This document shows, piece after piece, positions 45,859-63,757 of a stretch of DNA of 64,000 bases; positions within the stretch are counted from its first letter, which is position 1, and each line of letters begins with the position of its first letter. The position numbers and the translations under genes are program-made. The notes under the pieces were generated by a model that saw nothing but the letters and a program-made list of their open reading frames with translations, was not told the origin of the DNA and did no database searches. Source of the DNA: a virus; the IMG/VR virus record IMGVR_UViG_3300030099_004448, positions 106,595 through 170,594 of that record. One strand, written 5' to 3'.

Positions 45859-46417
45859 CATCGTTCGTGACGAAGTAAAGTCATTAGATATTGATCATCT
45901 CAAAGCTCTGTCACTCAATCCTAATGATTGGCAGGCAGCAGGTGTCAGTGAGTATCGACTCTATGCATATCTGTCTACTTTCTTTAATAAGACTACCATT
46001 CTAGACATTGGTACTAGAACTGGTGGTTCTGCCCTTTCACTTTCATACAATCCACAGAACACTGTACGCAGTTATGATCTTGTGGAACAGGGTGCAAGTA
46101 CTATCAAAAAAGATAATCTTTCATTCTTCATTGGTAATTTCATGGAGGATGAAGATATCGACTGGGATAATGTTTCTATTGTCATGATCGATGTTGATCC
46201 TCACGATGGTGCTCAGGAACGAGTCATGATGGACTGGTTGCGAGATAAAGGTTGGAAGGGTATCATGCTTCATGATGATATCGGTCCTGGTTGGCCTGAT
46301 ATCCAACTCATGTGGGATGAAATTCCCGAACCTAAAATTGATGTTACTGAGATCGCTCACATGAGTGGTACTGGTCTTGTCAATTTTGGTGAAGCACACG
46401 AAGTCTCTGTTGTATGA
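45848..46417 (+). CDS. SAM-dependent methyltransferase-like protein, 189 aa
   Basis: ILDIGTRTGGSALSL (motif I), acidic end of strand 2 (SYDLVEQ) and IVMIDVDPHDGAQE (motif II/III) indicate a class I fold. Similar proteins act on sugars or small molecules in surface polysaccharide loci. The start is at 45848, overlapping the epimerase end by 11 bases. A longer in-frame version reading into the epimerase gene is a frame artefact. Confidence 0.7.
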   Translation: MKIDIVRDEVKSLDIDHLKALSLNPNDWQAAGVSEYRLYAYLSTFFNKTTILDIGTRTGGSALSLSYNPQNTVRSYDLVEQGASTIKKDNLSFFIGNFMEDEDIDWDNVSIVMIDVDPHDGAQERVMMDWLRDKGWKGIMLHDDIGPGWPDIQLMWDEIPEPKIDVTEIAHMSGTGLVNFGEAHEVSVV

Positions 46418-47268
46418 TGAAAATTCTTGTTCTTGGTTCTAGTGGTCAGGTTGGTGCATACCTGGTTGAGTATCTTCGTGAGAAAGGTCACGAAGTAATT
46501 GAGTTTGATAAAAACAAAGATCCTCATTGGCAGGATCTTACGGTGAATAATAATGCATATCTTATGGAGTGCATGATCAAGGCAGACTTTGTGTTCTTCC
46601 TTGCATTTGACGTTGGTGGATCTAGGTATCTGAAGAAGTATCAACACACTTATCGATTCCTCCATAACAATACAAAGATGATGGCAAACGTCTTTGAACA
46701 ACTTGAAGCCAATAAGAAACCATTTGTCTTTGCATCATCTCAGATGAGCAATATGTCTTACTCACCTTATGGTGTTGCTAAGAAGATGGGAGAACTATAC
46801 ACCAAAGCCCTTGGTGGTAAGATCGTTCACTTCTGGAATGTCTATGGTATTGAAAAAGACATGGACAAGGCACACGTCATCACTGACTTCATTAAGAAGG
46901 GATTTGAAACGGGTGATATCTCTATGTTGACAGATGGAACTGAACAACGTGAGTTCCTCTATGCAGAAGATTGTTGTGAAGCCTTAGAGTCTGTCATGGA
47001 AAACTATGATAAACTCGATTCGGAAGATAATCTACACATCACTTCTTTTGAAGCAACTAGTATTCTTGATATTGGTCGCATCATCCAAGGATTGTTTGCA
47101 GAGGTTGGTCGTAGTGTAACTGTTACACCTGCAGAATCTAAAGACGAGGTTCAGAAAGATAAGAGAAATGAGGCAGACAGGTTCATTACTAAGTATTGGA
47201 ATCCCAAAACCACAATTCAAGATGGTATTCGTAACGTATTTAATGACATGAAAGGAGAGTTCCTATGA
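46414..47268 (+). CDS. NAD-dependent sugar epimerase/dehydratase, 284 aa
   Basis: Rossmann start MKILVLGSSGQVGAYL, catalytic YGVAKK (Tyr-x3-Lys) and a late REFLYAEDCCEAL block identify an extended SDR acting on a nucleotide sugar. It has a WNVYG loop as in GDP-fucose and related synthases. Overlaps both neighbours by ATGA. Exact substrate not determined. Confidence 0.8.
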   Translation: MMKILVLGSSGQVGAYLVEYLREKGHEVIEFDKNKDPHWQDLTVNNNAYLMECMIKADFVFFLAFDVGGSRYLKKYQHTYRFLHNNTKMMANVFEQLEANKKPFVFASSQMSNMSYSPYGVAKKMGELYTKALGGKIVHFWNVYGIEKDMDKAHVITDFIKKGFETGDISMLTDGTEQREFLYAEDCCEALESVMENYDKLDSEDNLHITSFEATSILDIGRIIQGLFAEVGRSVTVTPAESKDEVQKDKRNEADRFITKYWNPKTTIQDGIRNVFNDMKGEFL

Positions 47269-47477
47269 AACTACTTACACTTGAAGATTATCAGAAGGCA
47301 GGTGAGACTTTTTGGCCAAAGTATTGGTATGTTGCCAAAGAACTTGGTGAAGATGCCAAGGCAGAGGACATTTTGAAGTGCATGGAAGCTGTTGGTACAG
47401 TTGCACTGAGATTCAAGATGGAAGAGAAAGAAGGTCCGTTCGGTTTTAACAAAACAGAAAAAAATAATGAAGATTAA
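47265..47477 (+). CDS. Small hypothetical protein in glycan operon, 70 aa
   Basis: KLLTLEDYQKAGETFWPKYWYVAKELGE, then an acidic helix. Soluble, coupled at its start by ATGA and overlapping the next gene by 11 bases. No motif recognised. Possibly an accessory to the SDR or GT10 next door. Confidence 0.5.
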   Translation: MKLLTLEDYQKAGETFWPKYWYVAKELGEDAKAEDILKCMEAVGTVALRFKMEEKEGPFGFNKTEKNNED

Positions 47478-48258
47478 TTTGATTTGCAACGACTCATTGT
47501 TGCCCTCTACATCAGACAAAAACACTGCTAAGAATACTGAATGGGTCTATGATGGATCGGGTGCGGTGAGTTTGTATGTCAATCAGAAATCTTTAGATAT
47601 ATTGCAAGATGTCTCTAGCACGCCTAAGTATATTTGGCTATTAGAGTCAAAACAAATTATCCAGGGGATCTATGATTGGATTCTTACAAACTATGACTTT
47701 GTTGCTTCCAGAGTGGACGGTATTTTTAGTTGCGATAAAGAACTCTGCGAAAAATATCCGAAGTTCTTTTACGCACTGAGTAACGCTGCACCATGGATTG
47801 AAGAACGTCAGATCTATGAGAAGACTAAACTAGTCTCCATGATTTCTTCAAACAAAGCAATGGTTCCTGGTCATCGCAAGAGACTGGAATTCGTCCAAAA
47901 ATTTAGAGATCAAGTTGATCTTTATGGTAGGGGATTTAATGACCTTCCCCGTAAGGAAGAGGGTATTCGAGATTACATGTTCTCTGTGGCAGTAGAGAAC
48001 GCCGTCTATGATACATACTTTACGGAGAAACTTACAGACTGTTTCGCCACAGGAACGATTCCTGTCTTCTACGGTTGTAGAGGAGTCACAGAATATTTCA
48101 ACGAAGATGGAATTATATTCCTAGATGATGACTTTGACATTTCCACACTGACTGAAGATCTTTATCATTCCAAATTGGATGCGGTTAAAGATAACTTTGA
48201 ACGTGCCAACAACCTGCCAGTGGCAGAAGATTATCTATATGAAACTTATTGGAAATGA
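47467..48258 (+). CDS. GT10 fucosyltransferase-like glycosyltransferase, 263 aa
   Basis: The C-terminal core YMFSVAVENAVYDTYFTEKL followed by FATGTIPVFYGC is the classic alpha-1,3-fucosyltransferase (GT10) donor motif. It is shorter than bacterial FucTs (about 350-450), with a reduced N-terminal acceptor domain. The donor could be GDP-fucose or GDP-L-galactose from the epimerase at 44758. Confidence 0.82.
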   Translation: MKINLICNDSLLPSTSDKNTAKNTEWVYDGSGAVSLYVNQKSLDILQDVSSTPKYIWLLESKQIIQGIYDWILTNYDFVASRVDGIFSCDKELCEKYPKFFYALSNAAPWIEERQIYEKTKLVSMISSNKAMVPGHRKRLEFVQKFRDQVDLYGRGFNDLPRKEEGIRDYMFSVAVENAVYDTYFTEKLTDCFATGTIPVFYGCRGVTEYFNEDGIIFLDDDFDISTLTEDLYHSKLDAVKDNFERANNLPVAEDYLYETYWK

Positions 48259-48920
48259 GTAGTCGATTTAGTTATTTTGGAGAGAATGACATCACACTCA
48301 CTGGTGTCATTCACGTCGGTGCCCACAGGGGTGAAGAGGTCAATGAATATGAAGACCTTGGCGCTAAACAAGTCATTTGGGTTGAAGCGAACCCTGATGT
48401 ATTTGAAGAGATGCGTGTTGCATTGACTAATGCTGAATCTACTATTGAATCTCATGCATTTCAATACGCTGCAAGTACAGAGGATCATGCTACTGTAAAG
48501 TTCAACAGATATTATGGACCCGATGCTGGTTATCTTAGGGGTAACAAGGGATGTTCATCTCTTCTGAAAGCAGAGGGTAGATTTGAAGCCTGGTATAAAG
48601 ATACAATCGAAGTAGAAACCATTACTATTGATACTCTTTTAGAAGAGAATGACTTCAAAGTAGAAGACTTCCAACTCCTAAACATGGATGTTCAGGGTGC
48701 TGAGTTAATGGTTTTGAGGGGTTCTGAAAAAGTCCTAGATAATGTGAAGTGGGTTACCACTGAAGCAACCTGGGAAGATCCTGATTACATTGACAACGTA
48801 ATGTATGATGAGTTAAAATCTTTCTTGGAATCTAAAGGATTTGTTGAGACACAAATTATTCCCCATGCAGAGAACTGGGGTGATGTTCTTTTTGTAAAGG
48901 AGACCCATGAACAGAGTTAA
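48255..48920 (+). CDS. FkbM-family methyltransferase, 221 aa
   Basis: VIHVGAHRGEEVNEYEDLGAKQVIWVEANP is the FkbM motif I region, with a central FQLLNMDVQGAELMVLRGSE block and TTEATWEDP. O-methylates sugars or peptides. ATG 48255 is used (overlap ATGA), not the upstream TTG. Suggests a methylated sugar in the final glycan. Confidence 0.85.
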   Translation: MSSRFSYFGENDITLTGVIHVGAHRGEEVNEYEDLGAKQVIWVEANPDVFEEMRVALTNAESTIESHAFQYAASTEDHATVKFNRYYGPDAGYLRGNKGCSSLLKAEGRFEAWYKDTIEVETITIDTLLEENDFKVEDFQLLNMDVQGAELMVLRGSEKVLDNVKWVTTEATWEDPDYIDNVMYDELKSFLESKGFVETQIIPHAENWGDVLFVKETHEQS

Positions 48921-49665
48921 GGATTTTCAAGAGTTAGAAACAAGAATCGTGACATGGATTAAAGATTATGTCACTAAGAACAAACTGAATAGTCTTGTAG
49001 TCGGGGTATCTGGAGGCATTGATTCTGCAGTAGTCTCGACTCTTTGTGCTAGAACTGGTCTGCCGACCTATGTTCTCTCGATGCCACTGAACTCAAGTTC
49101 TGCAAACGATGACCTTTCGGATTCATACTCTAATTTCCTTGAGGACAATTATGAGAATGTAACTAAAATTCGAGTGGATCTAGGTAAAGTTTATCAGTCA
49201 TTCATGGACAGTCTTGACTTCTGGTGTGGTGATGGTGAATATACGACGAGTGGTCTAGCAAATGCGAATACTAAATCTCGTATGCGTATGGTAACTTTGT
49301 ATCAAGTTGCAGGAACCACTGGTGGAATTGTTGTGGGAACAGGAAATAAGGTTGAAGATTATGGAGTTGGGTTCTATACTAAGTACGGTGACGGTGGTGT
49401 AGACATTGCACCTATCGCAGATCTATACAAGACTGAAGTATGGGAACTTGGTAAACACCTTGGTGTTGATCAACGTATCATTGATGCTCCTCCTACTGAT
49501 GGTCTTTGGGATGACAGTCGAACTGATGAAGATCAGATTGGTGCATCCTATGAAGATCTAGAATATGCCATGGAACATGGAACTGGTCCTGCAGTCCGAA
49601 TCCTCCATGACTATCATACAAAAAACAAGCACAAAATGAATCCTATCCCGACTTTTGAACTATGA
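48907..49665 (+). CDS. nadE: NAD+ synthetase (ammonia-dependent type)
   Basis: N-type ATP pyrophosphatase with VGVSGGIDSA (residues 32-41) and GTGNKVEDYGVGFYTKYGDGGVDIAPIADLYKTEVWEL, the NadE signature. At 252 aa it lacks a glutaminase domain. It would raise NAD supply for Zwf, Gnd and the SDR enzymes, or make an amidated product. Its place inside the glycan operon is unusual. Overlaps both neighbours. Confidence 0.85.
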   Translation: MNRVKDFQELETRIVTWIKDYVTKNKLNSLVVGVSGGIDSAVVSTLCARTGLPTYVLSMPLNSSSANDDLSDSYSNFLEDNYENVTKIRVDLGKVYQSFMDSLDFWCGDGEYTTSGLANANTKSRMRMVTLYQVAGTTGGIVVGTGNKVEDYGVGFYTKYGDGGVDIAPIADLYKTEVWELGKHLGVDQRIIDAPPTDGLWDDSRTDEDQIGASYEDLEYAMEHGTGPAVRILHDYHTKNKHKMNPIPTFEL

Positions 49666-50807
49666 AAATTGGTCTTATTGGTGCAGGAAGACTCGGTATC
49701 TGTCTTGCTCTCTTGATCGAGAGGGCTGGGTATAATGTTTTGGTATCTGATATTCGTCCTGATTACGTTGACGCCTTAAATAGGAAGGAGATCGTAACGG
49801 AGGAACCTGATGTCCAGTGGCTCCTTAAACAAACGGAAAGATTCGAGGCGACTTGGGAAAACCAACGTGTCATCGACGAGTGCGACTTTATTATTTGTCT
49901 TGTTGCAACTCCTTCTCTTAATGATGGTTCTTATGATATAAGTTCTGTTTGGAATGTTGTTGAAGACTTCAAAAAGTCTGAATCAAAACTAAACGGAAAA
50001 ACTCTGGTGGTTGGATGTACAACTAACCCAGGAGATTGTGAGAAATTTAGTGAAGAGCTTTCATACTTTGGAGTGAATGTCGTTTACAATCCTGAATTTA
50101 TTGCACAGGGTACTATTGTTAGTGATTTGCAAAATGCAGATATGGTTCTCATCGGTGGTGCTGATGATGAGACCTATGAGTTCATGCAAGAAATTTATAG
50201 TCGCATCCAAGCAAGTCCGCCTCGGTGGGGACGAATGTCTACAACTGCTGCAGAACTTGTAAAGATCGCAGTAAATTGTTTTCTGACTATGAAAATTAGT
50301 TATGCCAACATGGTTGGTGAAGTCATGATTCAAGCAGGTCTTGCGGATGAAATCGAGGGAGTCATGCAAGCCATCGGAGACGACTCTAGAATCGGAAATA
50401 AATATCTTAAGTTCGGGTATGGATTTGGTGGTCCATGTCTTCCAAGAGACAATCGTGCCTTTGCATCATTTGCATCTAAGGTTGGTGTCAAGTATAATCT
50501 TGGTGAGACTACTGATAACTTCAATGACGAACATGCGAAGTTCCTCTGTAATTACTATTTGAGCAAGAACAAAGATAGTAAACCCTTCTACTTCCGATAT
50601 GTTTCATATAAGGAAGGAACGGACATCCTTACGGAAAGTCAACAGTATCGCCTCTGCGAGGATCTTTTGTATCAAGGATACACTTGTTATGTTGACGACA
50701 ACGAAAGTATTATCACCCAACTAAAACAAAATTCCAAATTAGATGTCACTAGACTTAAGTTTGGAAAACCACCAGAAGATGTACAAGTTATTGAGATTGA
50801 CCTATGA
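49662..50807 (+). CDS. UDP-glucose/GDP-mannose dehydrogenase family protein, 381 aa
   Basis: N-terminal Rossmann GLIGAGRLGICLALLIERAGY, NPEFIAQGTIVSDL and the thioester active site GFGGPCLPRD with C259, Lys/Asn in VKIAVNCFLTMKISYANM. Oxidises a nucleotide sugar to the uronic acid. The C-terminal lobe is somewhat short and divergent, so the substrate (UDP-Glc, UDP-hexosamine or GDP-Man) is open. Gives a charged sugar for the glycan. Confidence 0.85.
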   Translation: MKIGLIGAGRLGICLALLIERAGYNVLVSDIRPDYVDALNRKEIVTEEPDVQWLLKQTERFEATWENQRVIDECDFIICLVATPSLNDGSYDISSVWNVVEDFKKSESKLNGKTLVVGCTTNPGDCEKFSEELSYFGVNVVYNPEFIAQGTIVSDLQNADMVLIGGADDETYEFMQEIYSRIQASPPRWGRMSTTAAELVKIAVNCFLTMKISYANMVGEVMIQAGLADEIEGVMQAIGDDSRIGNKYLKFGYGFGGPCLPRDNRAFASFASKVGVKYNLGETTDNFNDEHAKFLCNYYLSKNKDSKPFYFRYVSYKEGTDILTESQQYRLCEDLLYQGYTCYVDDNESIITQLKQNSKLDVTRLKFGKPPEDVQVIEIDL

Positions 50808-51664
50808 TCGGGTACAACAGACTCGGAAGTAACGGACGTTTGGGAAACCAAATGTTTCAATATGCATCATTAAGAGGCATTGCAGATAAAAATGGATATG
50901 ATTGGTGTATTCCTCCTGAGGAATATGATCATAAGGATAACTATGGTTTGTTTGAAACTTTCAAACTAATTAGTGTTGCGCCAAAGAATATTGGATTTGT
51001 TCAGGGTGATTATGTGCAAGAAAATGATCATTGTTTTTTAGAAGACTTTTTCAATGTTCTTCCAGACAACGTTAGTTTAGATGGATACTTTCAAACAGAA
51101 AAATACTTCTCGCACATTAGAGAAGAAATACTCGCGGATTACACATTCAGGGACGATTTCTTCCTTCCTTGTAAACAGTATGTTGATAGTCTGGATGTGC
51201 CTCCTATCTTCCTGCATATTCGTCAGTCTGATAACATCGGAAGAGAAGAATACCACCCCATTCTTCCCCTTACATATTATGAAGAAGCTCTGAAAGAGTT
51301 TCCTGAAGATACCCCTTGTTTTGTTCTTACAGACGATATTGAGTGGTGTAAGAAACAACCGTTCTTTGATAATGATAGATTCATGTTCAATGAGAACAAT
51401 GATCGGTATCAATACCAGACTATTGATGGTCTTGGACGTATGCAGAATACTCTTCTGCCCCAGGTTGATCTCTGTCTTATGAGTCTTTGTTCTGGTGCTA
51501 TCATTGCAAACTCATCATTCTCTTGGTGGGGAGCATGGTTGCAGGATGATGCGGGTAAGGTTGTTGCACCTAATCCTAAGAAGTGGTTTGGTACTGCCAT
51601 GACGCATCTAGATACCTCAGACATCGTGCCTCATCGTTGGATTATTAAAGAGTGGAGTAAGTAA
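50804..51664 (+). CDS. GT11 glycosyltransferase (alpha-1,2-fucosyltransferase-like), 286 aa
   Basis: NGRLGNQMFQYA (residues 10-21), FLHIRQSDNIG (H138-x-R, with Asp) and ANSSFSWWGAWL are the three GT11 blocks. First of three GT11 paralogues in the operon. Uses a GDP-L-sugar. Coupled by ATGA upstream and TAATG downstream. Confidence 0.88.
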   Translation: MIGYNRLGSNGRLGNQMFQYASLRGIADKNGYDWCIPPEEYDHKDNYGLFETFKLISVAPKNIGFVQGDYVQENDHCFLEDFFNVLPDNVSLDGYFQTEKYFSHIREEILADYTFRDDFFLPCKQYVDSLDVPPIFLHIRQSDNIGREEYHPILPLTYYEEALKEFPEDTPCFVLTDDIEWCKKQPFFDNDRFMFNENNDRYQYQTIDGLGRMQNTLLPQVDLCLMSLCSGAIIANSSFSWWGAWLQDDAGKVVAPNPKKWFGTAMTHLDTSDIVPHRWIIKEWSK

Positions 51665-52560
51665 TGGCTGTAACATTTAAAGGACTTGGTAACGAGGGTC
51701 GCCTTGGTAACCAAATGTTTCAATATGCCTTTGTCCGAGGTGTGGCTGCAAACCGTGGATTTGATTGGATGATCCCTGGCCCAAATGCAGATAGACTTGA
51801 TAACTATGGTTTGTTCGATGCATTTGAACTAACCAACTGCGATCTAAATAGGAACACTGGAGAACCCTTCTACAAAACAGTAGAATATAGGGATATGCAC
51901 TTCAATGAAGAAATCTATGACCGTTGCGAGGACAATACCAATTTCTCTGGTAATTTCCAAACGGAGAGATATTTTGAGACAATCGCGGCGTCTATCCGTG
52001 AGGATTTCACTTTTAAAAAGGCGTATCTGGAACCGTGCCAAGATTTTATTGATAGTCTTGGTGGACGTGATGAGTGTATCTTTTTGCACGTTCGTAGAGG
52101 TAATCCGAATCTTACTGGACGTAGAGGGGAAAAGTGGTCTTATCAGATGGTGCAAGAATACCACCCTCTCTGTAAAGCTGAATATTATGTACGGGCCCTC
52201 CAAGAGTTCCCCGAAGACAAAACAGTCATCGTCGTCTCAGACGTAATCGACTGGTGTAAGAAACAACCCTATCTTCAGGGAGATCGATTCCAATTCTCAG
52301 ACTCATCTTATGAGGTCTTTGGTGATGGTGCATCCGTTCCTTATGTTGACCTCTGTTTAATGAGTCTTTGTGGTGGTGCTATCATCGCCAACTCTTCTCT
52401 ATCATGGTGGGGTGCATGGTTGCAAGGTGATACAGGAAAGGTAGTTGTACCCGATCCCTGGTTTGGACCTGCATATGACCACTACAACATGAAGGATATG
52501 ATTCCAGATCGATGGGTCAAACTCCACAACGATCCATCCCCAGTTACTCCAGAACAATGA
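51664..52560 (+). CDS. GT11 glycosyltransferase, 298 aa
   Basis: EGRLGNQMFQYA, FLHVRRGNPNL and ANSSLSWWGAWL. The usual Asp of HxRRxD is Asn here (RRGN), a difference from the other two copies that could alter activity or specificity. About one third of residues are shared by eye with its neighbours. Part of the coupled operon. Confidence 0.86.
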   Translation: MAVTFKGLGNEGRLGNQMFQYAFVRGVAANRGFDWMIPGPNADRLDNYGLFDAFELTNCDLNRNTGEPFYKTVEYRDMHFNEEIYDRCEDNTNFSGNFQTERYFETIAASIREDFTFKKAYLEPCQDFIDSLGGRDECIFLHVRRGNPNLTGRRGEKWSYQMVQEYHPLCKAEYYVRALQEFPEDKTVIVVSDVIDWCKKQPYLQGDRFQFSDSSYEVFGDGASVPYVDLCLMSLCGGAIIANSSLSWWGAWLQGDTGKVVVPDPWFGPAYDHYNMKDMIPDRWVKLHNDPSPVTPEQ

Positions 52561-53372
52561 AAGATTTAACATTCCTATTACCATGTCGCATTGAGTCTGA
52601 AGATCGACTCAAAAATGTAATTACATCTACGACATATCTCCTCAAGAACTTTCCAGAAGCAAAAGTAATTCTGAAAGAAGTTGATACCAGGTCACACTTC
52701 AAGTTTCGTGCCCTACCTATCATCAAAAAGTATGTAAATACGGATCAACTCACTCACATCTTTGAGGAGAGTAATGAGAAGTTCTTTCATAAGACTCGTA
52801 TCTTGAATGATCTTTTGGTTGCTTCTGATACTTCTATCGTTTATAATCATGACGTGGATGTAGTTCTTCCCAAAGAAAGTTATGAACTCGCATACGCTGC
52901 AATTAAAAAGGGTCAATCTGATGCAGTATATCCTTTTGGTTGCGGAGTCTATCAATGGGCTGTAAACTATTCCGAATCAATTTTCAGTCAGTTCTTGGAT
53001 TCTGATTTTGATTTCAGTACACTTGATGAAGGTAAATTTAGAGTTGCTTCATCTATTGGTTGGGGTCAAATGATCAAAAGAGATACTGAGATTGAAGTTG
53101 GTATGTGGAATGAAAACTTCATCTCATGGGGTGCGGAGGATTGTGAGTTCTACTTCCGTCTGAATAGTTTTGGTCGAAAGGTGGGTAGAGTTCTTGGTGA
53201 CATCTATCACTTTGAACACGGTAGAACATTCAACTCGCACTACCATAATCCCAAGTTCATGGATAACCACAATCTATGGCAAGATATTAGAACGTGGGAT
53301 GCCGATAAACTTATTGAGTATTATCAAAAACAAGATTACAACGCAAAGAGGTTAGAAGAACTGTCATGCTAG
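52557..53372 (+). CDS. Glycosyltransferase with GT7-like C-terminus, 271 aa
   Basis: GT-A fold: LTFLLPCRIESEDRL, NHDVDVVLP (DxD) and WNENFISWGAEDCEFYFRL, the (W/G)WGxEDxEF block of galactosyltransferase-type (GT7) and related GT2 enzymes. Start at 52557 inside the previous stop. It probably adds a hexose or HexNAc to the growing glycan. Confidence 0.8.
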   Translation: MKDLTFLLPCRIESEDRLKNVITSTTYLLKNFPEAKVILKEVDTRSHFKFRALPIIKKYVNTDQLTHIFEESNEKFFHKTRILNDLLVASDTSIVYNHDVDVVLPKESYELAYAAIKKGQSDAVYPFGCGVYQWAVNYSESIFSQFLDSDFDFSTLDEGKFRVASSIGWGQMIKRDTEIEVGMWNENFISWGAEDCEFYFRLNSFGRKVGRVLGDIYHFEHGRTFNSHYHNPKFMDNHNLWQDIRTWDADKLIEYYQKQDYNAKRLEELSC

Positions 53373-54220
53373 CAATTAATGAGCTCGGGAACATGGGTCG
53401 TCTAGGAAACCAGATGTTCCAATATGCAGCAACGCGAGGACTTGCAGCTGCAAAGGGGTATGAATGGTGTATTCCACCTTTTACGACTCCCAGGATTGAT
53501 AACTACAGTCTTGCTAATTGTTTTACCATGGAGAGTGTTACTCCTAGTAATCAATACATCCTTGATCGTGGACATGCTCCAGTAGTTATGGAAAAACAGT
53601 TCCACTTCGATGAGGAACTGATGCAATTGTGTCCCAATGATGTTTCTTTGTATGGATTTTTCCAGACTGAGAAGTATTTTGCACACATTCGAGATGAAAT
53701 TCGTAGGGACTTTACTTTCCATGAAGATCTGACGGTTCCCATCCAAGGATTCCTTAACGATCTGAAAGATCCTATCTTCTTGCATGTACGTCGTGGTGAT
53801 CCCAACCTTGTCGATGCTCGTGGATTTAAGTGGTCTTACACTCAGTGTTCTTCTATGCACCCGCCACAAGGCGTTGAGTACTACGAAGAGGCGTTGAAAC
53901 AATTCCCAGACGATCAAGAGGTTGTCGTCGTCTCAGACTCGCCTGAGTGGGTTATGGAACAGGAACTATTCAAACCTGATCGTTTCTTTGTTTCTACACC
54001 CGAAGAGAAGTATCCTGATGGATCTTATACTCCTTATATTGACCTCTGTTTGATGGCGAATTGTAAGGGTGCTATCATTGCAAACTCTACTCTTTCTTGG
54101 TGGGGTGCATGGTTGCAGAATGGTGCTGGTAAAGTCATTGCACCTAAGAACTGGTTCGGTCCAGATTACGCTGATAAAGATACTAAAGATTTGTACTGTG
54201 AGGGTTGGGAAGTTATTTGA
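53366..54220 (+). CDS. GT11 glycosyltransferase, 284 aa
   Basis: MGRLGNQMFQYA, FLHVRRGDPNL (intact Asp) and ANSTLSWWGAWL. Third GT11 copy, closest by eye to 51664-52560. Separated from the other two by the GT7-like gene, with short overlaps on both sides. Confidence 0.87.
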   Translation: MLAINELGNMGRLGNQMFQYAATRGLAAAKGYEWCIPPFTTPRIDNYSLANCFTMESVTPSNQYILDRGHAPVVMEKQFHFDEELMQLCPNDVSLYGFFQTEKYFAHIRDEIRRDFTFHEDLTVPIQGFLNDLKDPIFLHVRRGDPNLVDARGFKWSYTQCSSMHPPQGVEYYEEALKQFPDDQEVVVVSDSPEWVMEQELFKPDRFFVSTPEEKYPDGSYTPYIDLCLMANCKGAIIANSTLSWWGAWLQNGAGKVIAPKNWFGPDYADKDTKDLYCEGWEVI

Positions 54221-55011
54221 TGGATAAGAATAAGTCTGTATCTAAACTGAAAGGTATGGGACCCATCTATTACATCAACTTAGATGGGCAACCAGAACGC
54301 AAACAGTACATGGAAGACATGTTTGCACATTGGGAAATTGAAAACTACGAACGTATTTCTGCATATGATGGTAGAGAGGATGATCTAAGCGACATCCTCC
54401 ACGGTCGTTATCCAGAAAATATGAGTTCTGGTGAGATTGGGTGTGTAACCTCTCACCTTAAACTCCTTAAACATTTTCTAGAGACATCTGATGCACCATA
54501 CTGTGTGGTGATGGAAGATGATGTTGATATTAATGTTGCTAAGTATTGGACTTTCACTTGGAATCAACTTTATGCAAGATTCCCCTATGATTATGATGTT
54601 GTTCAGTTGGCAGTCATCTGCCCTGGTACACTTCACGTCAATCTACACAGGAGATTTGTAAACGATTTCTCCACGGCGTGTTATGTCATTACACGTCACC
54701 ATGCGGAAAAGGTGGTTCGCCTCCATTGTCGGGGGGAAAAGTATAAACTAGACTATAAAATCAAGCCACGTGCTGTTGCAGACGATTTGATCTATAACTC
54801 TGGTAATACGTTCGCCTTGCCTATATTTCTCTATAAGATTGAGTTGGGGTCCTCAATTCATCCTGAACATATTGAGATTTTCCATCGAGGATCACATGAC
54901 GGTTTACGAGAACTCTGGGAAAGACAAGGATCGACACTAGAAATTGATAGATTGATGGAGTGGGATCCGTATTTGGGACGAACGTCAGAAGGTCCTCAAA
55001 AAAATACTTGA
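54220..55011 (+). CDS. GT25 glycosyltransferase (LPS type), 263 aa
   Basis: PIYYINLDGQPERKQYM, SSGEIGCVTSHLKLLKHF and VVMEDDVDI (DxD) are the three blocks of GT25 lipooligosaccharide transferases. ATG 54220 overlaps the previous stop; an in-frame TTG upstream is less likely. Last gene of the glycan operon. The hli promoter overlaps its stop. Confidence 0.87.
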   Translation: MDKNKSVSKLKGMGPIYYINLDGQPERKQYMEDMFAHWEIENYERISAYDGREDDLSDILHGRYPENMSSGEIGCVTSHLKLLKHFLETSDAPYCVVMEDDVDINVAKYWTFTWNQLYARFPYDYDVVQLAVICPGTLHVNLHRRFVNDFSTACYVITRHHAEKVVRLHCRGEKYKLDYKIKPRAVADDLIYNSGNTFALPIFLYKIELGSSIHPEHIEIFHRGSHDGLRELWERQGSTLEIDRLMEWDPYLGRTSEGPQKNT

Positions 55012-55982: not shown

Positions 55983-56007
55983 GAGGAGGGAAACCTCCTC
56001 ATTTTTT
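55983..56007 (+). terminator. Rho-independent terminator between hli unit and glgP
   Basis: GAGGAGG-gaaa-CCTCCTC followed by ATTTTTTAT. It should stop early transcripts from the hli promoter before glgP. Confidence 0.85.
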
Positions 56008-56018
56008 ATGGGATTATT

Positions 56019-58409
56019 ATGTTAACCAACACAATTACGGATGGAGTAAAGGAACGTCTTCTGTACACACTAGGAAAGCGTCCCGAATCTGCCTCTGCAC
56101 ACGATGTCTACATGGCACTTTGTTATGCCGTTAGAGATCGAATGATTGATAATCATTTAGTTGAAAAGCCATATAAGAAGGAAGTTGCATATTTGTCTGC
56201 AGAGTTCCTTATTGGACCGCAGTTGAGTAACAACTTACTCAATTTGGATATTCGCAAAGAAGCTGCTGCAGCAGTTGGTCAGTTTGGATATGATTTGGAT
56301 GAGATTTTAGAATTGTCTGAAGAACCTGGACTTGGAAATGGTGGTCTAGGTAGACTTGCTGCATGTTACATGGAATCCATGGCAACTCTAAAAGTTCCTG
56401 CCACTGGATATGGTATTAGATATAAGTACGGTATTTTCAAACAAACAATCCGTGACAATCAACAGGTAGAAGTCACCGATAATTGGTTGCATGGAGATTG
56501 GCCATGGGAAGTTTGTTATCCAGATGAATCTGTCATGATCGGATTCGGGGGAAAGGTAGAACACTATGAGTTTGATGATAATGACCATAGAGTTCGTTGG
56601 GCACCTCAACAACATGTGGTTGCAGTTCCTTATGATGTTTTGCAAGCAGGATATAAAGTAGATAGTTGTGCAAAGATTAGACTCTGGAGAGCAGACGCTA
56701 TTGATGTGTTTGACTTCAAAGCATTCAACCAGGGAGACTATCTGGGATCCGTAGAGAACAGTGTAACCACGGAGACTATCTCAAAAGTTCTTTATCCAAA
56801 TGATGGAACCACTCAAGGAAAAGAACTGAGATTAAAACAGCAGTTCTTCTTTGTGAGTGCTTCTCTTCAGGACATGATCAGAAGTCTCAAAGAACGTGAT
56901 CTACCTCTCGAAGAGTTCTACAACTATTATCAAGTTCAGTTAAATGATACTCATCCATCAGTTGCGGTTGCAGAACTAATGAGACTTCTTATGGATGATC
57001 ACCACATGGAGTGGGATCTTGCATGGGATATTACAAGTAAGTCGATTGCATATACCAATCACACACTACTTCCAGAGGCACTGGAGAAGTGGAGTGTAAG
57101 TCTGTTTGAAAAACTCCTACCCAGACACTTGGAGATCATTTATGAAATCAATTCCAGATTCCTCCAGATCGTCAGAATGCACTACCCAGGAGACGAAGAA
57201 ATCCTCAGAAAACTGTCCATCATTGATGAGACGGGTGGTAGATTTGTCCGCATGGCCAATCTTGCAACAGTCGGATCTCACCATATCAATGGTGTTGCTT
57301 CACTTCACTCAGATCTGATCACTAAGAACCTCATGCCTGAGTTCTATGACCTTTGGCCTCACAAGTTCACCAATGTAACCAATGGTGTGACTCCTCGTCG
57401 CTGGTTGGCAGACTCTAACCCTGCACTTGCTGAGGTTCTTACAAATTGCGTTGGTGATGAATGGGTTACTGATATGACTCGTCTCAGTGATCTAGAGAAG
57501 TTTGCTGATGATCCTATTGTTCTTGAAAAGATTGGTGCGACAAAACTCATTGGTAAACATAAACTGGCACAATATATACAGAAGACACTTGGCATCTCAG
57601 TTGATCCGTCAAGTATGTTTGATGTACAAGTAAAGAGGATTCATGAATACAAACGACAGCATCTCCTTGCTCTATGGATTGTGTCTCGGTATTTGTATAT
57701 CAAAAATCATAAAGACGATTATGTTGTTCCACGTACAGTAATCTTTGGTGGTAAAGCCGCACCTGGTTACTATATGGCGAAAGAGATTATTCGTTTCATT
57801 TGTAATCTTGCGGAGACTGTCAACTCAGATCCTGATATGGATGGAAAGTTGCGTGTGGTATTCCTACCTAACTATAGTGTGAAGTTGGGTGAGAAAGTCT
57901 ATCCCGCTGCGGATCTCTCTGAACAGATCTCAACCGCAGGTAAGGAAGCATCTGGTACTGGTAATATGAAGTTCCAGATGAATGGTGCTCTGACTATTGG
58001 TACACTCGATGGTGCAAATGTAGAGATTCGTGACTTGGTAGGTGAAGAGAACTTCTTCCTCTTTGGTAATACTGAAGAAGAGATCGGTGATCTATGGAAG
58101 AATGGTTATGATCCTAAAGAACACATGAGTTCTGGATTGTTTGAGTCGATTGAATTAATCAAGTCTGGTCACTTCTCGAATGGTGATAAGAATGCATTTG
58201 TTTCTATCATTGATAATCTGCTGCAGAGTGATCCATTCTGTGTCTGTGCAGACTTTGCAGATTATTGCCGTGCCCAGAACGTTGTAGATAACACCTGGGG
58301 TAATAGAGAGGAATGGAATCGTAGATCTCTGATGAACATTGCTAGATCTGGATTCTTCTCATCCGATAGATCTATTCAAGATTACTGTGACAACATCTGG
58401 AAAATATGA
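56019..58409 (+). CDS. glgP: Glycogen/alpha-glucan phosphorylase, 796 aa
   Basis: Releases glucose-1-phosphate from glycogen using phosphate and PLP (GT35). Motifs: EEPGLGNGGLGRLAACYMESMAT, YQVQLNDTHPSVAVAEL, TNGVTPRRW, VKRIHEYKRQ and the PLP site EASGTGNMKFQMNGA with Lys651. Full length. It would feed host phosphoglucomutase and then phage Zwf and Gnd. It starts a late unit with the glycosyltransferase downstream (ATGA overlap). Base and codon use look like the rest of the phage, so it is not a very recent import. Confidence 0.95.
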   Translation: MLTNTITDGVKERLLYTLGKRPESASAHDVYMALCYAVRDRMIDNHLVEKPYKKEVAYLSAEFLIGPQLSNNLLNLDIRKEAAAAVGQFGYDLDEILELSEEPGLGNGGLGRLAACYMESMATLKVPATGYGIRYKYGIFKQTIRDNQQVEVTDNWLHGDWPWEVCYPDESVMIGFGGKVEHYEFDDNDHRVRWAPQQHVVAVPYDVLQAGYKVDSCAKIRLWRADAIDVFDFKAFNQGDYLGSVENSVTTETISKVLYPNDGTTQGKELRLKQQFFFVSASLQDMIRSLKERDLPLEEFYNYYQVQLNDTHPSVAVAELMRLLMDDHHMEWDLAWDITSKSIAYTNHTLLPEALEKWSVSLFEKLLPRHLEIIYEINSRFLQIVRMHYPGDEEILRKLSIIDETGGRFVRMANLATVGSHHINGVASLHSDLITKNLMPEFYDLWPHKFTNVTNGVTPRRWLADSNPALAEVLTNCVGDEWVTDMTRLSDLEKFADDPIVLEKIGATKLIGKHKLAQYIQKTLGISVDPSSMFDVQVKRIHEYKRQHLLALWIVSRYLYIKNHKDDYVVPRTVIFGGKAAPGYYMAKEIIRFICNLAETVNSDPDMDGKLRVVFLPNYSVKLGEKVYPAADLSEQISTAGKEASGTGNMKFQMNGALTIGTLDGANVEIRDLVGEENFFLFGNTEEEIGDLWKNGYDPKEHMSSGLFESIELIKSGHFSNGDKNAFVSIIDNLLQSDPFCVCADFADYCRAQNVVDNTWGNREEWNRRSLMNIARSGFFSSDRSIQDYCDNIWKI

Positions 58410-59092
58410 ACATTTGGGTTGGGTATGACACCCGTGAACACTGGGCATTCAAGGTCTGTGATTACAGCATCCGCAAATACAGACCTGATGCAATCGTAAA
58501 ACCGATTGAACAACGAAACACAAGACTTCTTGGTCTCTACGATAGACCTATAGATGAGAATGCCTCTACTGAGTTTTCTCTAACTAGATTTCTAACGCCT
58601 GCACTATCAAACTTTAAGGGATGGTCACTTTACTGTGATTGTGACTTTCTCTTTTTGAATGATGTTAAAAAGTTATTTGATCTTGCTGATCCTAAGTACG
58701 CTGCAATGGTGGTCAAACATGACTATAAACCAAAGAGTAATACAAAGATGGATGGTCAAATTCAGTTTCCATATCCTAGAAAGAACTGGAGTTCTTTGAT
58801 CTTATTCAATAACGAACATCCATCCCATAAGTTTTTGGATGTCAATGGTATGACTCCTGCAGAGCTGCACCAGTTTGACTGGATTGCAGACAAAGATCTG
58901 GGTGAATTGCCTAAACGGTGGAATTGGTTGGTTGGTTATTGCACCGATGAAGACCTATGGTCTGATATTCCAGCTGCATTACATTACACAGATGGTGGAC
59001 CATGGTTTGAAGAGACTAAAGACTGTGATTACTCTGGTTTGTGGAATCAATATTATGAGGAGTGTCTAGATGCAAATAAAATATATCGTTGA
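58406..59092 (+). CDS. Glycosyltransferase with DxD motif, 228 aa
   Basis: IWVGYDTREHWAFKVCDYSIRK, TEFSLTRFLTP and LYCDCDFLFLNDV (DxD for Mn/nucleotide sugar), then NWSSLILFNN and LPKRWNWLVGY. GT8-like GT-A enzyme. Coupled to glgP by ATGA and overlapping the first gene of the six-gene array by 23 bases. The acceptor could be glycan, fibre or lipid; unknown. Confidence 0.75.
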   Translation: MNIWVGYDTREHWAFKVCDYSIRKYRPDAIVKPIEQRNTRLLGLYDRPIDENASTEFSLTRFLTPALSNFKGWSLYCDCDFLFLNDVKKLFDLADPKYAAMVVKHDYKPKSNTKMDGQIQFPYPRKNWSSLILFNNEHPSHKFLDVNGMTPAELHQFDWIADKDLGELPKRWNWLVGYCTDEDLWSDIPAALHYTDGGPWFEETKDCDYSGLWNQYYEECLDANKIYR

Positions 59093-59888
59093 CGAGACTG
59101 GTATAAATTTTGAACATCCTCCAAATAGAGTCATGAGATTCAATCCTGTAATTTTGGATTCCATGTCTGAAAAAATGGTTAGAAGTAGTTATAAATCTAA
59201 CTTGAAAAATATAGATATATTTTTTAATTCTGGAGCTAAAGAAAAACTTAGAACTATAACTAAACTTCCATATCAATATTTGGACTACAAGAAATATGGA
59301 TGTTTCATGTATCCATACATTGCAACAGATTTAAATATTATTGATGGGAAGGGGTATAGTAAAACCAATCCAGAGAGATGGAATCTTCAGACTGGATCAG
59401 GTAGACTTTTTATTCAGAGTAGATACTTCCCAGAAAGTAAATATCCACTTGCTCACTTTTCCTTACAATATGGAACAGGTGGAGGTGAAGTTATTGAAGA
59501 ATATGTTGAATACGTTAAGCAAACTTCTTGGTGGAAAGACAAAGATGTATCCGATATGGTAGCATTTGTAAACTTACATCCATATCCAGAACCAAAATGG
59601 AATACAAGTAAGATTGAAGTTTCTCTCAATGAACAGGAACACAGGTGGAATGAAAAAAATGTTTGGTTCATTAAACTTGTAGATTTTGTGCCTCGGAAAG
59701 ATGCGGAGAAACACATGGAACCCAGGTTAAAACCTGATTATTTCTTGAATAAGATCACTCAAAACAATCTAAATAAGAGACTGCATAAAATATACGAAGA
59801 ATTTGAAGGAGAAAATATAGATCTTTTGGACAAATTAATTTTAGATAATCTAGACTACGTGGAATCAATTTATGACTGGAGACTTTAA
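59070..59888 (+). CDS. Tandem family protein, copy 1, 272 aa
   Basis: First of six homologous neighbours. Shared blocks: IKYIVDETG at the N-terminus, TKLPYQYLDYKKYGCFMYP, GSGRLFIQSRYFPESKYPLAHFS, LQYGTGGGEVIEEY, WWKDKDVSD, then PRLKPDYF. It carries an insert near 180-205 lacking in most copies. No signal peptide or membrane segment. I do not recognise the family. Confidence 0.7.
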   Translation: MQIKYIVDETGINFEHPPNRVMRFNPVILDSMSEKMVRSSYKSNLKNIDIFFNSGAKEKLRTITKLPYQYLDYKKYGCFMYPYIATDLNIIDGKGYSKTNPERWNLQTGSGRLFIQSRYFPESKYPLAHFSLQYGTGGGEVIEEYVEYVKQTSWWKDKDVSDMVAFVNLHPYPEPKWNTSKIEVSLNEQEHRWNEKNVWFIKLVDFVPRKDAEKHMEPRLKPDYFLNKITQNNLNKRLHKIYEEFEGENIDLLDKLILDNLDYVESIYDWRL

Positions 59889-60636
59889 AATATTATGTTT
59901 TGATGATACAACTGGGATGTCTATAGATATTCCTACCATCGTGGACTACAAGTATGAAGTCAAACCACCAACAGATCAAATGGTTCAAGACGCCTTTAAA
60001 GTCTTCACTTCAGATGTAGATGAGTTTTTTAAGGATAATGTTTCTTTATTAGAAGAAGAGTATATCTTCAGTGAAAAATATACCTTTCCTTACGATGTAT
60101 TTACAAAACTGCCATATCTTTATTATGACTTGTGTGTTAAAAAACTACCCTTCAAGTATCCTGCATATGTTTATCCCGACAGGAAAAAGAAGAGGAAAAT
60201 GCTCTCGGGTTTGGGTAGAACTCTTATAACTTCTACTTTTGCTGATGATATTCCTTTGGATATCACTACACATTCTGAACAGTTTGGCACTGGTGGGGAG
60301 GAAATAATCAGAAAATTAATTAATGATATTTCTAATAATAGATATTGGATGGGTCATGTAAAATATCCTATTGCAGTTATCTTACTTTCAAAGTATGAAA
60401 AAGATTTGTATGTAATTAAGGATTTGAGTTTTACTGATGAAAACTATATGAACTCCTATAGAAATTTTAGACCAGAACCATTCATAGAAAGATCTATGGA
60501 TATGGAACTGTGGAATAGAATTAAACACATATTGAAATCGGGTAAATACTACTTGAATTCTCGTAAATACTACACCGAGATTCTCAATGACATTGTTTTT
60601 AAGAATTTAGATTATGTTAAAGATAAAGTACTTTGA
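59872..60636 (+). CDS. Tandem family protein, copy 2, 254 aa
   Basis: ILCFDDTTGMSID, FTKLPYLYYDLCVKKLPFKYP, GLGRTLITSTFADDIPLDITTHSEQFGTGGEEIIRK, RYWMGHVKYP and RPEPFIERS. It has Phe-Ala-Asp-Asp where others have YFP. Overlaps copy 1 by 17 bases and copy 3 by 23. Soluble, mixed alpha/beta, Lys- and Tyr-rich. Function unknown. Confidence 0.7.
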   Translation: MTGDFKILCFDDTTGMSIDIPTIVDYKYEVKPPTDQMVQDAFKVFTSDVDEFFKDNVSLLEEEYIFSEKYTFPYDVFTKLPYLYYDLCVKKLPFKYPAYVYPDRKKKRKMLSGLGRTLITSTFADDIPLDITTHSEQFGTGGEEIIRKLINDISNNRYWMGHVKYPIAVILLSKYEKDLYVIKDLSFTDENYMNSYRNFRPEPFIERSMDMELWNRIKHILKSGKYYLNSRKYYTEILNDIVFKNLDYVKDKVL

Positions 60637-61336
60637 TGATAGTAGTGGGAAAGAATTAAAATCTACCAGACTTAAACCTCTAATGATTGCGGACTTTGAG
60701 TATGAATCTCAAGTTAAAATATCTGAAGAGTTTCATAGTTGTGCCATAGATGACATTAACTATCATGTAAATAGAGTACTTAATGGTAATCCTAAACCTA
60801 GGATCTTCACTAAATTACCTTACCTTTATAGAGACTTCAAAGAAGATGGAATGATGCGCTTTCCTTTTTTTGAATTCTGTGATCATCCAGATATAAATGT
60901 GCGATATGGTGTGGGATATGGTAGAGCATTAGTTGCACAGAAGTATTTTCCAGATATCAAAATAGATCACATAAAGTCATCTAAAGAGTTTGGTATAGGA
61001 TCGGTTGAGATTGCAGAAAAAGCAATTAGTTTGATTAGAAATAATGTGTACTGGAAAGATAAGTCAGTTCCAGAAACTGTGATTGTAATGTTGGATAAAC
61101 ATAATTGGTTTTATTATCTTAAGGAGATAGGGTTTGCTTCTGACGAATATCTAGAGAGAAGAAAGAATTGGAGACCTCAAGAATTTGTAGAATCAACAAT
61201 CAATGATGAGTTGTGGAAATTACAGGAACAGATAATAAAAGAGGATCCTGACAATTGTTTTGATGAGGTTGTAAGAGGTGTGTTAAATAACCTTGATGGA
61301 CTTCAATCCAGTAATATCAAGTATTATACAAAATGA
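60614..61336 (+). CDS. Tandem family protein, copy 3, 240 aa
   Basis: IKYFDDSSGKELK, FTKLPYLYRDFKEDGMMRFPFF, GYGRALVAQKYFPDIKIDHIKS, KEFGIGSVEIAEK, VYWKDKSVPETV and WRPQEFVEST. The copy closest to a consensus, hence useful as a query. ATG 60614 lies in the end of copy 2; stop overlaps copy 4 (ATGA). Confidence 0.7.
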   Translation: MLKIKYFDDSSGKELKSTRLKPLMIADFEYESQVKISEEFHSCAIDDINYHVNRVLNGNPKPRIFTKLPYLYRDFKEDGMMRFPFFEFCDHPDINVRYGVGYGRALVAQKYFPDIKIDHIKSSKEFGIGSVEIAEKAISLIRNNVYWKDKSVPETVIVMLDKHNWFYYLKEIGFASDEYLERRKNWRPQEFVESTINDELWKLQEQIIKEDPDNCFDEVVRGVLNNLDGLQSSNIKYYTK

Positions 61337-62187
61337 AATACGATGTAACTTACTTTAATGCTGACGATGGTCAGTTGATTGAATTTGACGATGGTCTCTT
61401 TAACTTAAACCTTGTAAAGTTTAAGTATTATAAGAATGAAAAAATTTCATCAGATAGACTTGCAACTGCATTTGATCTTTTCAAATATGATGTTAATAGG
61501 TATGTAAATGGTGGCACTGGATATAGTATGCGTGATTTTGACAACGGTAATATAGCCTTTGATACTTTCACCATACTTCCTTTTCTATATCTAACTGCAG
61601 AAAAAGGAGAACCGTTTCAATATCCCATCATGGAATCTCCGTATCAGGAGAAGTGGTTGACTTCTAATGACTATGGACTCAAACATACGCCAATGTTGTC
61701 TGGAAATGGTAGGAGTTTAATTTTAGGTAAATATTTTCCAGAACAAACCATTGATATCGTTAGTAGTGATATATCGGAAGGTATTGGTGGCGATGACGAT
61801 ATGGAAGAATTTTTGGATAACTTATTTGCAAATTCATATTGGAATGGTAAAGATATATCTGATTATAAAATCATAGTTAACCTATGTTCTGTAGGCGAAA
61901 ATAGTTTATTTGGTGGATTGAATGAGTTTTACGATGACTATACTTATAGAATGTTATACACTCTAAAGACAGTGGAGTTGGTTGATCATGAATACATGGA
62001 AGACTATAAACATTACAGACCTGAAAGGTTTATAGAAAAAACTTCTAGACTAACTAACTGGAAGATCCTTAAAAATATTATTGATGAATCTACATTAGAA
62101 ACTGATGAAGACTATTGGGAGTTATTAGATAATATAGTTAATGGTTATAAAAAATATTTTGAGAGTGTTTATACTTGGAAGATATGA
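61333..62187 (+). CDS. Tandem family protein, copy 4, 284 aa
   Basis: VTYFNADDGQLIE, FTILPFLYLTAEKGEPFQYP, GNGRSLILGKYFPEQTIDIVS, SEGIGGDDDMEEF, SYWNGKDISDYKI and YRPERFIEKTS. Longest copy, with an acidic insert (about 195-215). The last motif (Asp/Glu-rich D-x-Y-E-L-L) is shared with copies 5 and 6. Confidence 0.7.
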   Translation: MKYDVTYFNADDGQLIEFDDGLFNLNLVKFKYYKNEKISSDRLATAFDLFKYDVNRYVNGGTGYSMRDFDNGNIAFDTFTILPFLYLTAEKGEPFQYPIMESPYQEKWLTSNDYGLKHTPMLSGNGRSLILGKYFPEQTIDIVSSDISEGIGGDDDMEEFLDNLFANSYWNGKDISDYKIIVNLCSVGENSLFGGLNEFYDDYTYRMLYTLKTVELVDHEYMEDYKHYRPERFIEKTSRLTNWKILKNIIDESTLETDEDYWELLDNIVNGYKKYFESVYTWKI

Positions 62188-62912
62188 AACCTATATTATA
62201 TTTTAATGATAAGACTGGTGAGTCGTTAAATCTTGGCGATCAGTTAAAGGTAGTTGGATACAAGTATGAACACAATACTATATCTGAAAGACTATTTCAA
62301 GAATCTCTTTTCATTTTTAAGAGAGATATCACACGCTTTAAGTCTGCTCCGTTCAATCCCGCCTGGAACAAACCACATGATGATGCTTTCATAGAATTTG
62401 GAGAGGGATATTGGTTAATAACAAAGTTGATTCATCTGTATGATGCCCTCATAAAGGAAGGTAGATTTAAACAACCATTTGTTATTAATCCTAATAAGGA
62501 AAGACTTCTTTCATGTGGGCATGGTAGAACGTTGATTGGGTATAGATATTTTCCATACCTTGTTCATGATTACACTACTCATAGTAAAGAATATGGTATT
62601 GGTGGTGAAGAGTTAGTAAGAAAATATTTAAGTCTTGCTGCAAGTGCGGGTGATCTTGATAAGGAATATGTTGTGTCAATACTTCCCTTTCAGGATGTAT
62701 GGCAAATTAGGAGTGTCAACTTTGTAAGTAAAGAATACTTGTCTGAAAGATTGAAGAAACCGACAACTAGACAACTAGATCCTTTTCTAGAAAAGGTTTG
62801 TACTTTAGATGACTGGTTCGAGATAAAATCAAAGATAAAACTTGCTAAGTTAGAAACCGATGAAGATTATCTACAACTTTTGGATGATATTGTATTATGC
62901 AGAGAGAGATGA
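62184..62912 (+). CDS. Tandem family protein, copy 5, 242 aa
   Basis: ILYFNDKTGESLN, ITKLIHLYDALIKEGRFKQPF, GHGRTLIGYRYFPYLVHDYTTHSKEYGIGGEELVRKY, then KPTTRQLDPFLEKV. ATG 62184 overlaps the stop of copy 4 (ATGA); an in-frame TTG nine bases upstream is less likely. Best preserved central motif among the six. Confidence 0.7.
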   Translation: MKPILYFNDKTGESLNLGDQLKVVGYKYEHNTISERLFQESLFIFKRDITRFKSAPFNPAWNKPHDDAFIEFGEGYWLITKLIHLYDALIKEGRFKQPFVINPNKERLLSCGHGRTLIGYRYFPYLVHDYTTHSKEYGIGGEELVRKYLSLAASAGDLDKEYVVSILPFQDVWQIRSVNFVSKEYLSERLKKPTTRQLDPFLEKVCTLDDWFEIKSKIKLAKLETDEDYLQLLDDIVLCRER

Positions 62913-63568
62913 ATATTCTATACAATGATGCAATAACTTTTGAACCTTTGGATCCATTTGTAAAAATTTCCAAATTTAAGTATTACGATAAAACTCAAGT
63001 AACTGATGATGATAAACATGAATCATTTGAACAATTCATTCAAGATGTCCACGATGTAAAAAGTGGAAAATATGATAGTGATAGCTTAGAGTATCCACGA
63101 TCTCACTTCACTGCCTTGCCTTTTCTTTATAGAGATATAAAAAAAAATGATGTGAAATATCCAACTTTTTATACACCAGATCCCACTTCTCCCATGAAAC
63201 TAACTGGTGTGTGTAGAAAACTTGTTCTATCTCATTTCTTTCCTTATACTCTTTTGGATAGAGTTCACTATTCTGTTCAGAAGGGTGGTAATCTATATGA
63301 ATTGATAGAAAATATATCCACAAACATCTATTGGTCTACTGAAAATGTGAATTCCGCTTGTGTTCTAGCCTGTAAAGGAACAATGTATCCTGCACACACA
63401 TATGTCATGGGGGTTGAATTCAATGAACCTAATCCACATCCTCTGGGTCCTTGGAGTGGTAGAGTTTACGAAGAAGAAGACATGTGGTATGATATGAAAC
63501 GTCTGATTGTAAAGTCAGACTGTGACTATGAAAAGCTGCTCCAAAAATTAGTTTTGGATTACGCTTGA
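62909..63568 (+). CDS. Tandem family protein, copy 6 (divergent), 219 aa
   Basis: ILYNDAITFEPLD, FTALPFLYRDIKKNDVKYP, then GVCRKLVLSHFFPYTLLDRVHYS in place of G-x-GR...YFP. The following GxGGEE block is decayed to KGGNLYE. Shortest copy. ATG 62909 is chosen because it overlaps the stop of copy 5 (ATGA) and aligns with the other N-termini; 62897 is an alternative. Divergence suggests changed or lost activity. Confidence 0.65.
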   Translation: MNILYNDAITFEPLDPFVKISKFKYYDKTQVTDDDKHESFEQFIQDVHDVKSGKYDSDSLEYPRSHFTALPFLYRDIKKNDVKYPTFYTPDPTSPMKLTGVCRKLVLSHFFPYTLLDRVHYSVQKGGNLYELIENISTNIYWSTENVNSACVLACKGTMYPAHTYVMGVEFNEPNPHPLGPWSGRVYEEEDMWYDMKRLIVKSDCDYEKLLQKLVLDYA

Positions 63569-63598
63569 CATGATACGGATTTCCGTATAGTATAAATA
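63565..63598 (+). promoter_or_regulatory. psbA promoter region: TTGACA, palindrome and late motif
   Basis: TTGACA (63565-63570), 17 bases, TAGTAT (63588-63593), and the late motif TATAAATA (63591-63598). Between the boxes sits the inverted repeat ATACGG-attt-CCGTAT (63573-63588). psbA may thus be read early and late, with a possible operator. Confidence 0.6.
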
Positions 63599-63757
63599 GA
63601 TCAACGACGTGGGATGTAAAGTTCCGTTAAGTTGTACAACTCTCCGTAAACCGAGACCTCTAGGGAGTATAAACACGTCTCTCATACCTCTGCTAAGGGT
63701 GCAGAGGAATAGTAACTCCACCATTTCCCTGATGGTCTTACTTTTTTGTTCAAAACA
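63599..63757 (+). other. psbA 5' leader with hairpin
   Basis: About 160 bases without a gene. It holds the perfect 7-bp hairpin CCTCTGC-taagggt-GCAGAGG (63689-63709) and a T-rich stretch before the ATG. Long structured psbA leaders are typical of cyanobacteria and their phages, so it probably affects mRNA stability or translation. Confidence 0.5.

Follow-up and report, generated by a model that had tools for sequence, protein, structure and literature searches.

Six consecutive genes of a 239-kb cyanophage encode a family, orphaned in databases, that is probably a distant, phage-restricted branch of the ParB/sulfiredoxin (ParB/Srx) fold. They lie in a 64,000-nucleotide stretch (the window; positions 106,595 to 170,594 of IMG/VR record IMGVR_UViG_3300030099_004448), directly downstream of a glycosyltransferase gene. 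The fold assignment is supported, not proved, by invariant residues, predicted structure and profile comparison. With the fold, a conserved arginine in every copy and neighbors that are tailoring enzymes, nucleotide binding coupled to the glycosyltransferase or a similar enzyme becomes the most likely function. We therefore lean, by a modest margin over even chances, toward reading the six as single-module orphan ParB/Srx-fold proteins, most likely nucleotide-binding, that act with the glycosyltransferase in a phage tailoring pathway.

Six tandem paralogs

The original prediction, made from the window sequence, described six tandem paralogs coupled by short overlaps, and this was confirmed. 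All 15 BLASTP pairs among the six products gave expect (E) values between 1.7e-21 and 6.4e-5 (60,000-letter search space), so that, as judged from sequence, paralogy is beyond chance. The copies share 20–30% identity and differ in large inserts. Neighboring open reading frames of the family overlap by 4–23 nt; upstream of them, glgP and the glycosyltransferase gene share 4 nt, and the glycosyltransferase gene and copy 1 share 23 nt. Profile search of the whole 238.9-kb phage record found exactly six copies. Their lengths, given earlier as 219–284 aa, are corrected to 223–284 aa; copy 5 could start at ATG 62184 in place of TTG 62175. The shared order of sequence blocks is real for copies 1–5, whereas copy 6 is without the GxGGEE and RPExFE blocks. 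Copy 6 had been said to have lost its central motif. GxGGEE is indeed absent there, while the GxxR motif is kept, as GVCR. The GxG(G/S) block is absent also from family members on other contigs (L022, L223, L014:18790 and others), so loss from copy 6 may equally be gain in the copy 1–5 clade.

The array was compared with that of a sister contig (L008, IMGVR_UViG_3300020439_001565), which has glgP, the glycosyltransferase and the array in the same order, with seven copies. Copies 1–5 pair one-to-one with L008 orthologs at 87–91% identity, with ratios of nonsynonymous to synonymous substitution rates (dN/dS) of 0.10–0.16, and are under purifying selection. Copy 6 is only 54% identical to its ortholog, with a dN/dS of 0.29. 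The extra L008 copy groups with the copy-3 pair (tree support 96/94), in a family tree whose deep branches are weakly supported. Only copy 6 and this copy-3-like duplicate look fast or recent. The high identity and low dN/dS of copies 1–5 therefore describe an old, mostly conserved array with occasional copy gain, not the fast-diversifying module originally envisaged.

Invariant residues and predicted structure

Among the positions examined, P84, G101 and R104 (copy-3 numbering) were the sole residues invariant in 27 family members, a pattern already visible in the alignment before any structure was computed. R104 was kept in 27 of 27, copy 6 included. The family alignments are small (21–27 sequences), and two conservation statements rest on alignments of proteins that are 20–30% identical. 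Around the invariant residues runs the order helix, loop, P, strand, turn, GxxR, helix, strand, which resembles the ParB N-domain: P84 falls on the Box I proline, and G101 and R104 on the GxxR phosphate motif of the ParB-CTPase fold. According to a 2025 survey (PMC12704722), that fold binds nucleotides through Box I, which is a helix with a loop, and through the GxxR P motif; mutating the GxxR arginine abolishes nucleotide binding, and Box III is often absent in orphans. Many orphan ParB-fold proteins have recently been shown to bind cytidine, adenosine or guanosine triphosphate (CTP, ATP or GTP).

Structure prediction for copy 3, one of the checks first suggested, gave a confident AlphaFold2 model (predicted local distance difference test, pLDDT, 88.8; predicted template modeling score, pTM, 0.85) with its elements in the order expected of a ParB fold. 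P84 comes after helix 62–78 and before strand 85–88; R104 starts the helix that follows a strand or turn. The model of the core of a relative from another contig (L009; pLDDT 86.7, pTM 0.80) has the element order b-a-a-b-b-a-b-a-b-b, with P86 just ahead of a strand, and the next helix opening with G97xxR100. The GxG(G/S)xE loop of copies 1–5 is placed between strand 117–122 and helix 131–142 of the copy-3 model, roughly matching the ParB Box III site.

The same conservation bears on whether the pocket is used. A somewhat unlikely alternative is that the ParB-derived fold is a mere scaffold, the copies being non-catalytic binders of host targets, or glycosyltransferase acceptors, amplified like other phage accessory proteins. 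Such a role would suit the large insert differences and low identity between copies, the fast evolution of copy 6 and the common occurrence of ParB-fold domains on mobile elements (PMC12704722). Against it, R104, which would bind phosphate, does not vary in any member, and this would not be expected of an unused pocket.

Profile and structure comparisons

We gathered ParB/Srx sequences from cyanobacterial genomes via PF02195 and compared the family with 19 non-canonical ones. With four family alignments, hhalign scores were 22.5, 25.9, 27.3 and 23.5, and in the alignments P84 matched the Box I proline and the two GxxR motifs coincided. The hhalign probability was only 8–29%, over 31–42 aligned columns. 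Column- or block-shuffled decoys had a mean score of ∼10–11; none of 300 reached the 27.3 obtained from the 26-sequence alignment, and one of 500 reached the 23.5 from the 27-sequence alignment. For five unrelated families from these phages, compared in both directions (ten comparisons), scores did not exceed 16.2, and an annotated cyanophage ParB-like family scored 23.9 on the same non-canonical ParB profile.

Structure searches were no more than suggestive of the same fold. When the copy-3 model was searched with Foldseek against viral models, ∼7 of the top 50 matches were named ParB, ParB/sulfiredoxin or chromosome partitioning, none with E < 0.001. For the L009 core against 350,542 PDB chains, ranks 1–3 were the N-domain of a pNOB8-like ParB (5k5d; E 0.42–2.2, probability 0.23–0.44), and a separate pNOB8-like ParB entry, 5k5a, stood at rank 34. 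That core and that relative were chosen after the viral-model search, for a ParB-like short beta hairpin, a choice that favors the ParB hypothesis. The earlier statement that the proteins belong to no known family is therefore revised at the level of fold: the invariant residues, the predicted element order, the Foldseek ranking and the profile comparison are indicative of ParB/sulfiredoxin. What was borne out is an unnamed paralogous family, tandem-amplified and physically tied to a glycosyltransferase.

Several results weigh against this assignment. Ranks 1–3 for 5k5d are three chains of one entry; full-length copy 3 found no ParB in its top 50 PDB matches; all Foldseek E values were ≥0.3, and no single fold search was significant alone. 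PF02195 had no match in the phage record, and the family alignments contained no ENxxR-like Box III block. Profile scores shifted with the family alignment used. Similarity to canonical ParB was weak (∼14), there was none to sulfiredoxin (∼10), and the cyanophage family annotated as ParB-like gave no direct match (12). At the sequence level, searches of the six copies in Pfam, PHROGs and NCBIfam, with single members and with all members, gave no convincing match above chance; no Pfam or NCBIfam family fits any family member at curated cut-offs, and a profile search of PDB sequences returned nothing. We propose that the family lies below Pfam detection because it is too diverged.

We consider it unlikely that the proteins have an undescribed fold in which structure, or a different ligand, accounts for the conservation of P84 and GxxR, and convergence in a ∼40-residue beta-beta-helix stretch for the resemblance to ParB. 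The absence of any E < 0.001 in the structure and family searches, and the shortness of the profile alignment, fit that idea. It accounts poorly for the agreement of sequence motif, profile, viral models and, for the core, solved structures on the ParB fold, with the profile route arriving at the same residues, and for the rarity of decoys reaching the observed profile score.

Other kinships were tried and rejected. The top PDB matches of copy 3 (CcmS, pyruvate kinase and HGPRT, probability ≤0.10) were noise. Sulfiredoxin and the annotated cyanophage ParB-like proteins were dismissed as direct parents on the scores above, and kinship with the neighboring glycosyltransferases or 2-oxoglutarate (2OG) oxygenases on hhalign scores of 9–16. 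Membership in canonical ParB (ParABS) was set aside given the lack of a Pfam match to any member, the weak profile score and the absence of parA among the annotated neighbors inspected.

Table 1. Genes of the array with the two genes upstream, and proposed motifs in copy 3 (window coordinates)
Feature	Coordinates	Strand	Remarks
glgP, glycogen/carbohydrate phosphorylase (PF00343)	56019..58409	+	Heads co-directional run; E 0, 1039 bits
Glycosyltransferase, phrog_28018, weak GT8 match	58406..59092	+	Invariant D-x-D (D78, D80 of aligned first row)
Family copy 1, 272 aa	59070..59888	+	GxxR = GSGR; near-invariant D118 missing; large insert between last two strands
Family copy 2, 254 aa	59872..60636	+	GxxR = GLGR
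Family copy 3, 240 aa	60614..61336	+	GxxR = GYGR (G101-R104); modeled
Copy 3, proposed Box I-like element: helix (modeled residues 62-78) and loop to invariant P84	60803..60865	+	Model, conservation, ParB register; residue-to-base conversion by hand
Copy 3, proposed Box II / P motif GxxR, G101-Y-G-R104	60914..60925	+	Model, conservation; at start of helix 102-111
Family copy 4, 284 aa	61333..62187	+	GxxR = GNGR
Family copy 5, 245 aa from TTG 62175	62175..62912	+	GxxR = GHGR
Family copy 6, 223 aa	62897..63568	+	GVCR at GxxR; without GxGGEE and RPExFE; fastest-evolving copy

Neighborhood and putative partner glycosyltransferase

Members of the family are found in a neighborhood of glgP, glycosyltransferases, UDP-glucose dehydrogenase, KdsA/KdsB and 2OG oxygenases. 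The same glycosyltransferase immediately precedes a family member at six loci: the window, L008, L009, phage S-SCSM2R, L022 and L223. This adjacency is asymmetric, being frequent as seen from the family, whereas the glycosyltransferase usually has other neighbors. It is very common in viral contigs, and in other phages mostly other genes follow it. Nearly all of 80 further glycosyltransferase loci (L142–L221) are without an adjoining family member, as are those of Pelagibacter phage Mosig, Caulobacter phage CcrColossus, Stenotrophomonas phage DLP6 and ctDrO704; a single other uncharacterised family supplies the following gene at 42 of 70 loci. Because the glycosyltransferase mostly precedes other genes elsewhere, its position next to family members is no proof of partnership.

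Tandem arrays of small phage proteins are often counter-defense or takeover genes, and the family was phage-restricted in the searches made, yet its consistently metabolic or tailoring neighborhood and the purifying selection on copies 1–5 make it quite improbable that these are anti-defense or host-takeover factors with no link to sugars.

Further upstream in the window (44758–55011) is a long sugar cluster with two epimerases, GT10, an FkbM methyltransferase, NAD synthase, UDP-glucose dehydrogenase, GT11, a GT2-like gene and GT25. A terminator-like hairpin (GAGGAGG...CCTCCTC, then ATTTTTT) was noted at 55983–56000, ∼20 nt ahead of the glgP start. The array, glgP and the glycosyltransferase gene had been thought to be read from a late promoter. 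We found no late-type TATAAATA box upstream of glgP; the sole one in 54.9–64 kb is at 63591–63598, past the array and before psbA, and the three matches in the window compare with 4.4 expected by chance, so this claim was not sustained. Upstream of psbA there is also a PhotoRC-II cis-regulatory RNA (Rfam RF01717, 73.3 bits) at 63627–63720.

Relatives in other phages

Copy number varies among related phages, with five, six or seven copies in some and single copies in others. Contigs L009 and L010 have five copies around the glycosyltransferase, one of them inverted, next to psbA and psbD genes. Phage S-SCSM2R (PQ898602.1) has five scattered copies (genes 40, 262, 263, 268 and 270). Genes 262 and 263 come directly after the same glycosyltransferase as in the window, genes 268 and 270 are each next to a 2OG-Fe(II) oxygenase, and gene 40 adjoins a radical S-adenosylmethionine (radical-SAM)/SPASM gene. 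Single copies were found in L011, where the copy comes after a radical-SAM gene, and in L012. Radical-SAM/SPASM genes immediately upstream of a family member were located at L013:7423-7998 and L011:7030-7770; the S-SCSM2R annotation of this gene begins later than the L011 reading frame. The T4-like-looking contigs L022 and L223, with no visible cyanophage genes in the stretches read, each have one copy directly 3′ of the glycosyltransferase gene and overlapping it in the same manner.

Within the searches made, relatives recognizable from sequence came from phage contigs only. A search of 399 bacterial genomes of the order to which a Synechococcus genome belongs, a set with no positive control, gave no family relative, and neither did a scan of genome contigs, also run with no positive control. 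We rejected a host origin of the family on these two results, which, lacking positive controls, show a limited amount. One contig, L027 (NHGE01000071.1), is filed under a Euryarchaeota metagenome-assembled genome (TMED129). The start of its psbA is 92% identical to that of this phage, and it is probably a cyanophage contig binned into that genome.

Proposed role and comparison with known systems

In the model that we favor, the nucleotide base would be held by the helix and the loop ending in P84, and the phosphates by G101-x-x-R104, where the next helix begins. That the GxG(G/S)xE loop of copies 1–5 might help with phosphate or metal is a guess; copy 6, without this loop, may bind without catalysis. 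In the window the copies would cooperate with the neighboring GT-A-type glycosyltransferase; elsewhere, family members would do so with 2OG-Fe(II) oxygenases or a radical-SAM enzyme. Their part would be that of nucleotide-gated partners or, by analogy with SerK or SbnI, of small phosphotransferases. A more specific version, which we think rather doubtful, is that this amplified phage-specific ParB-fold set consists of specialized nucleotide-dependent kinases or nucleoside triphosphate-gated partners that tailor glycans or virion proteins with one glycosyltransferase.

If the fold is right, a family that fills six genes of this phage gains a likely structure and one testable residue, and the known range of the ParB fold widens to take in tandem arrays of marine phages and a link with sugar or tailoring enzymes. 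Nucleotide-dependent tailoring, if true, would add a new role to those of the ParB fold and define a new phage tailoring pathway made up of several proteins. Nucleotide binding by R104, and its effect on the neighboring glycosyltransferase, makes a workable question.

The closest known system is the orphan (non-parAB) ParB-CTPase fold, PF02195 and relatives (PMC12704722). The family shares with it a helix and a P-ending loop that together resemble Box I, a GxxR motif where a helix begins, the element order in the models, a phage location and a missing Box III, as in many orphans. It differs in falling below all family thresholds, in its tandem paralogs, in an extra N-terminal hairpin and long helix and a C-terminal hairpin and helices, and in having no recognized DNA-binding or dimerization domain. 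The pNOB8-like ParB N-domain (5k5d, 5k5a) is the best-ranked solved structure for the family core, but at E 0.42 at best, 11–16% identity and a short aligned stretch in the better superpositions. The ParB-fold serine kinases SerK and SbnI are a possible model for phosphotransfer (PMC12704722 and general knowledge), although no sequence match to the family was found. The superfamily fold common to ParB is also that of sulfiredoxin, from which the family differs in its low profile score and in having no catalytic Cys in the GxxR motif. Last are the cyanophage proteins annotated as ParB-like CTPase or chromosome segregation protein (S-SCSM2R gene 34, S-SCSM1, S-SKS1, ACG-2014i). They give no direct profile match to the family, but have a GxHR motif and a similar ParB-profile score, and S-SCSM2R gene 34 adjoins a 2OG-Fe(II) oxygenase, as do some members of the family described here.

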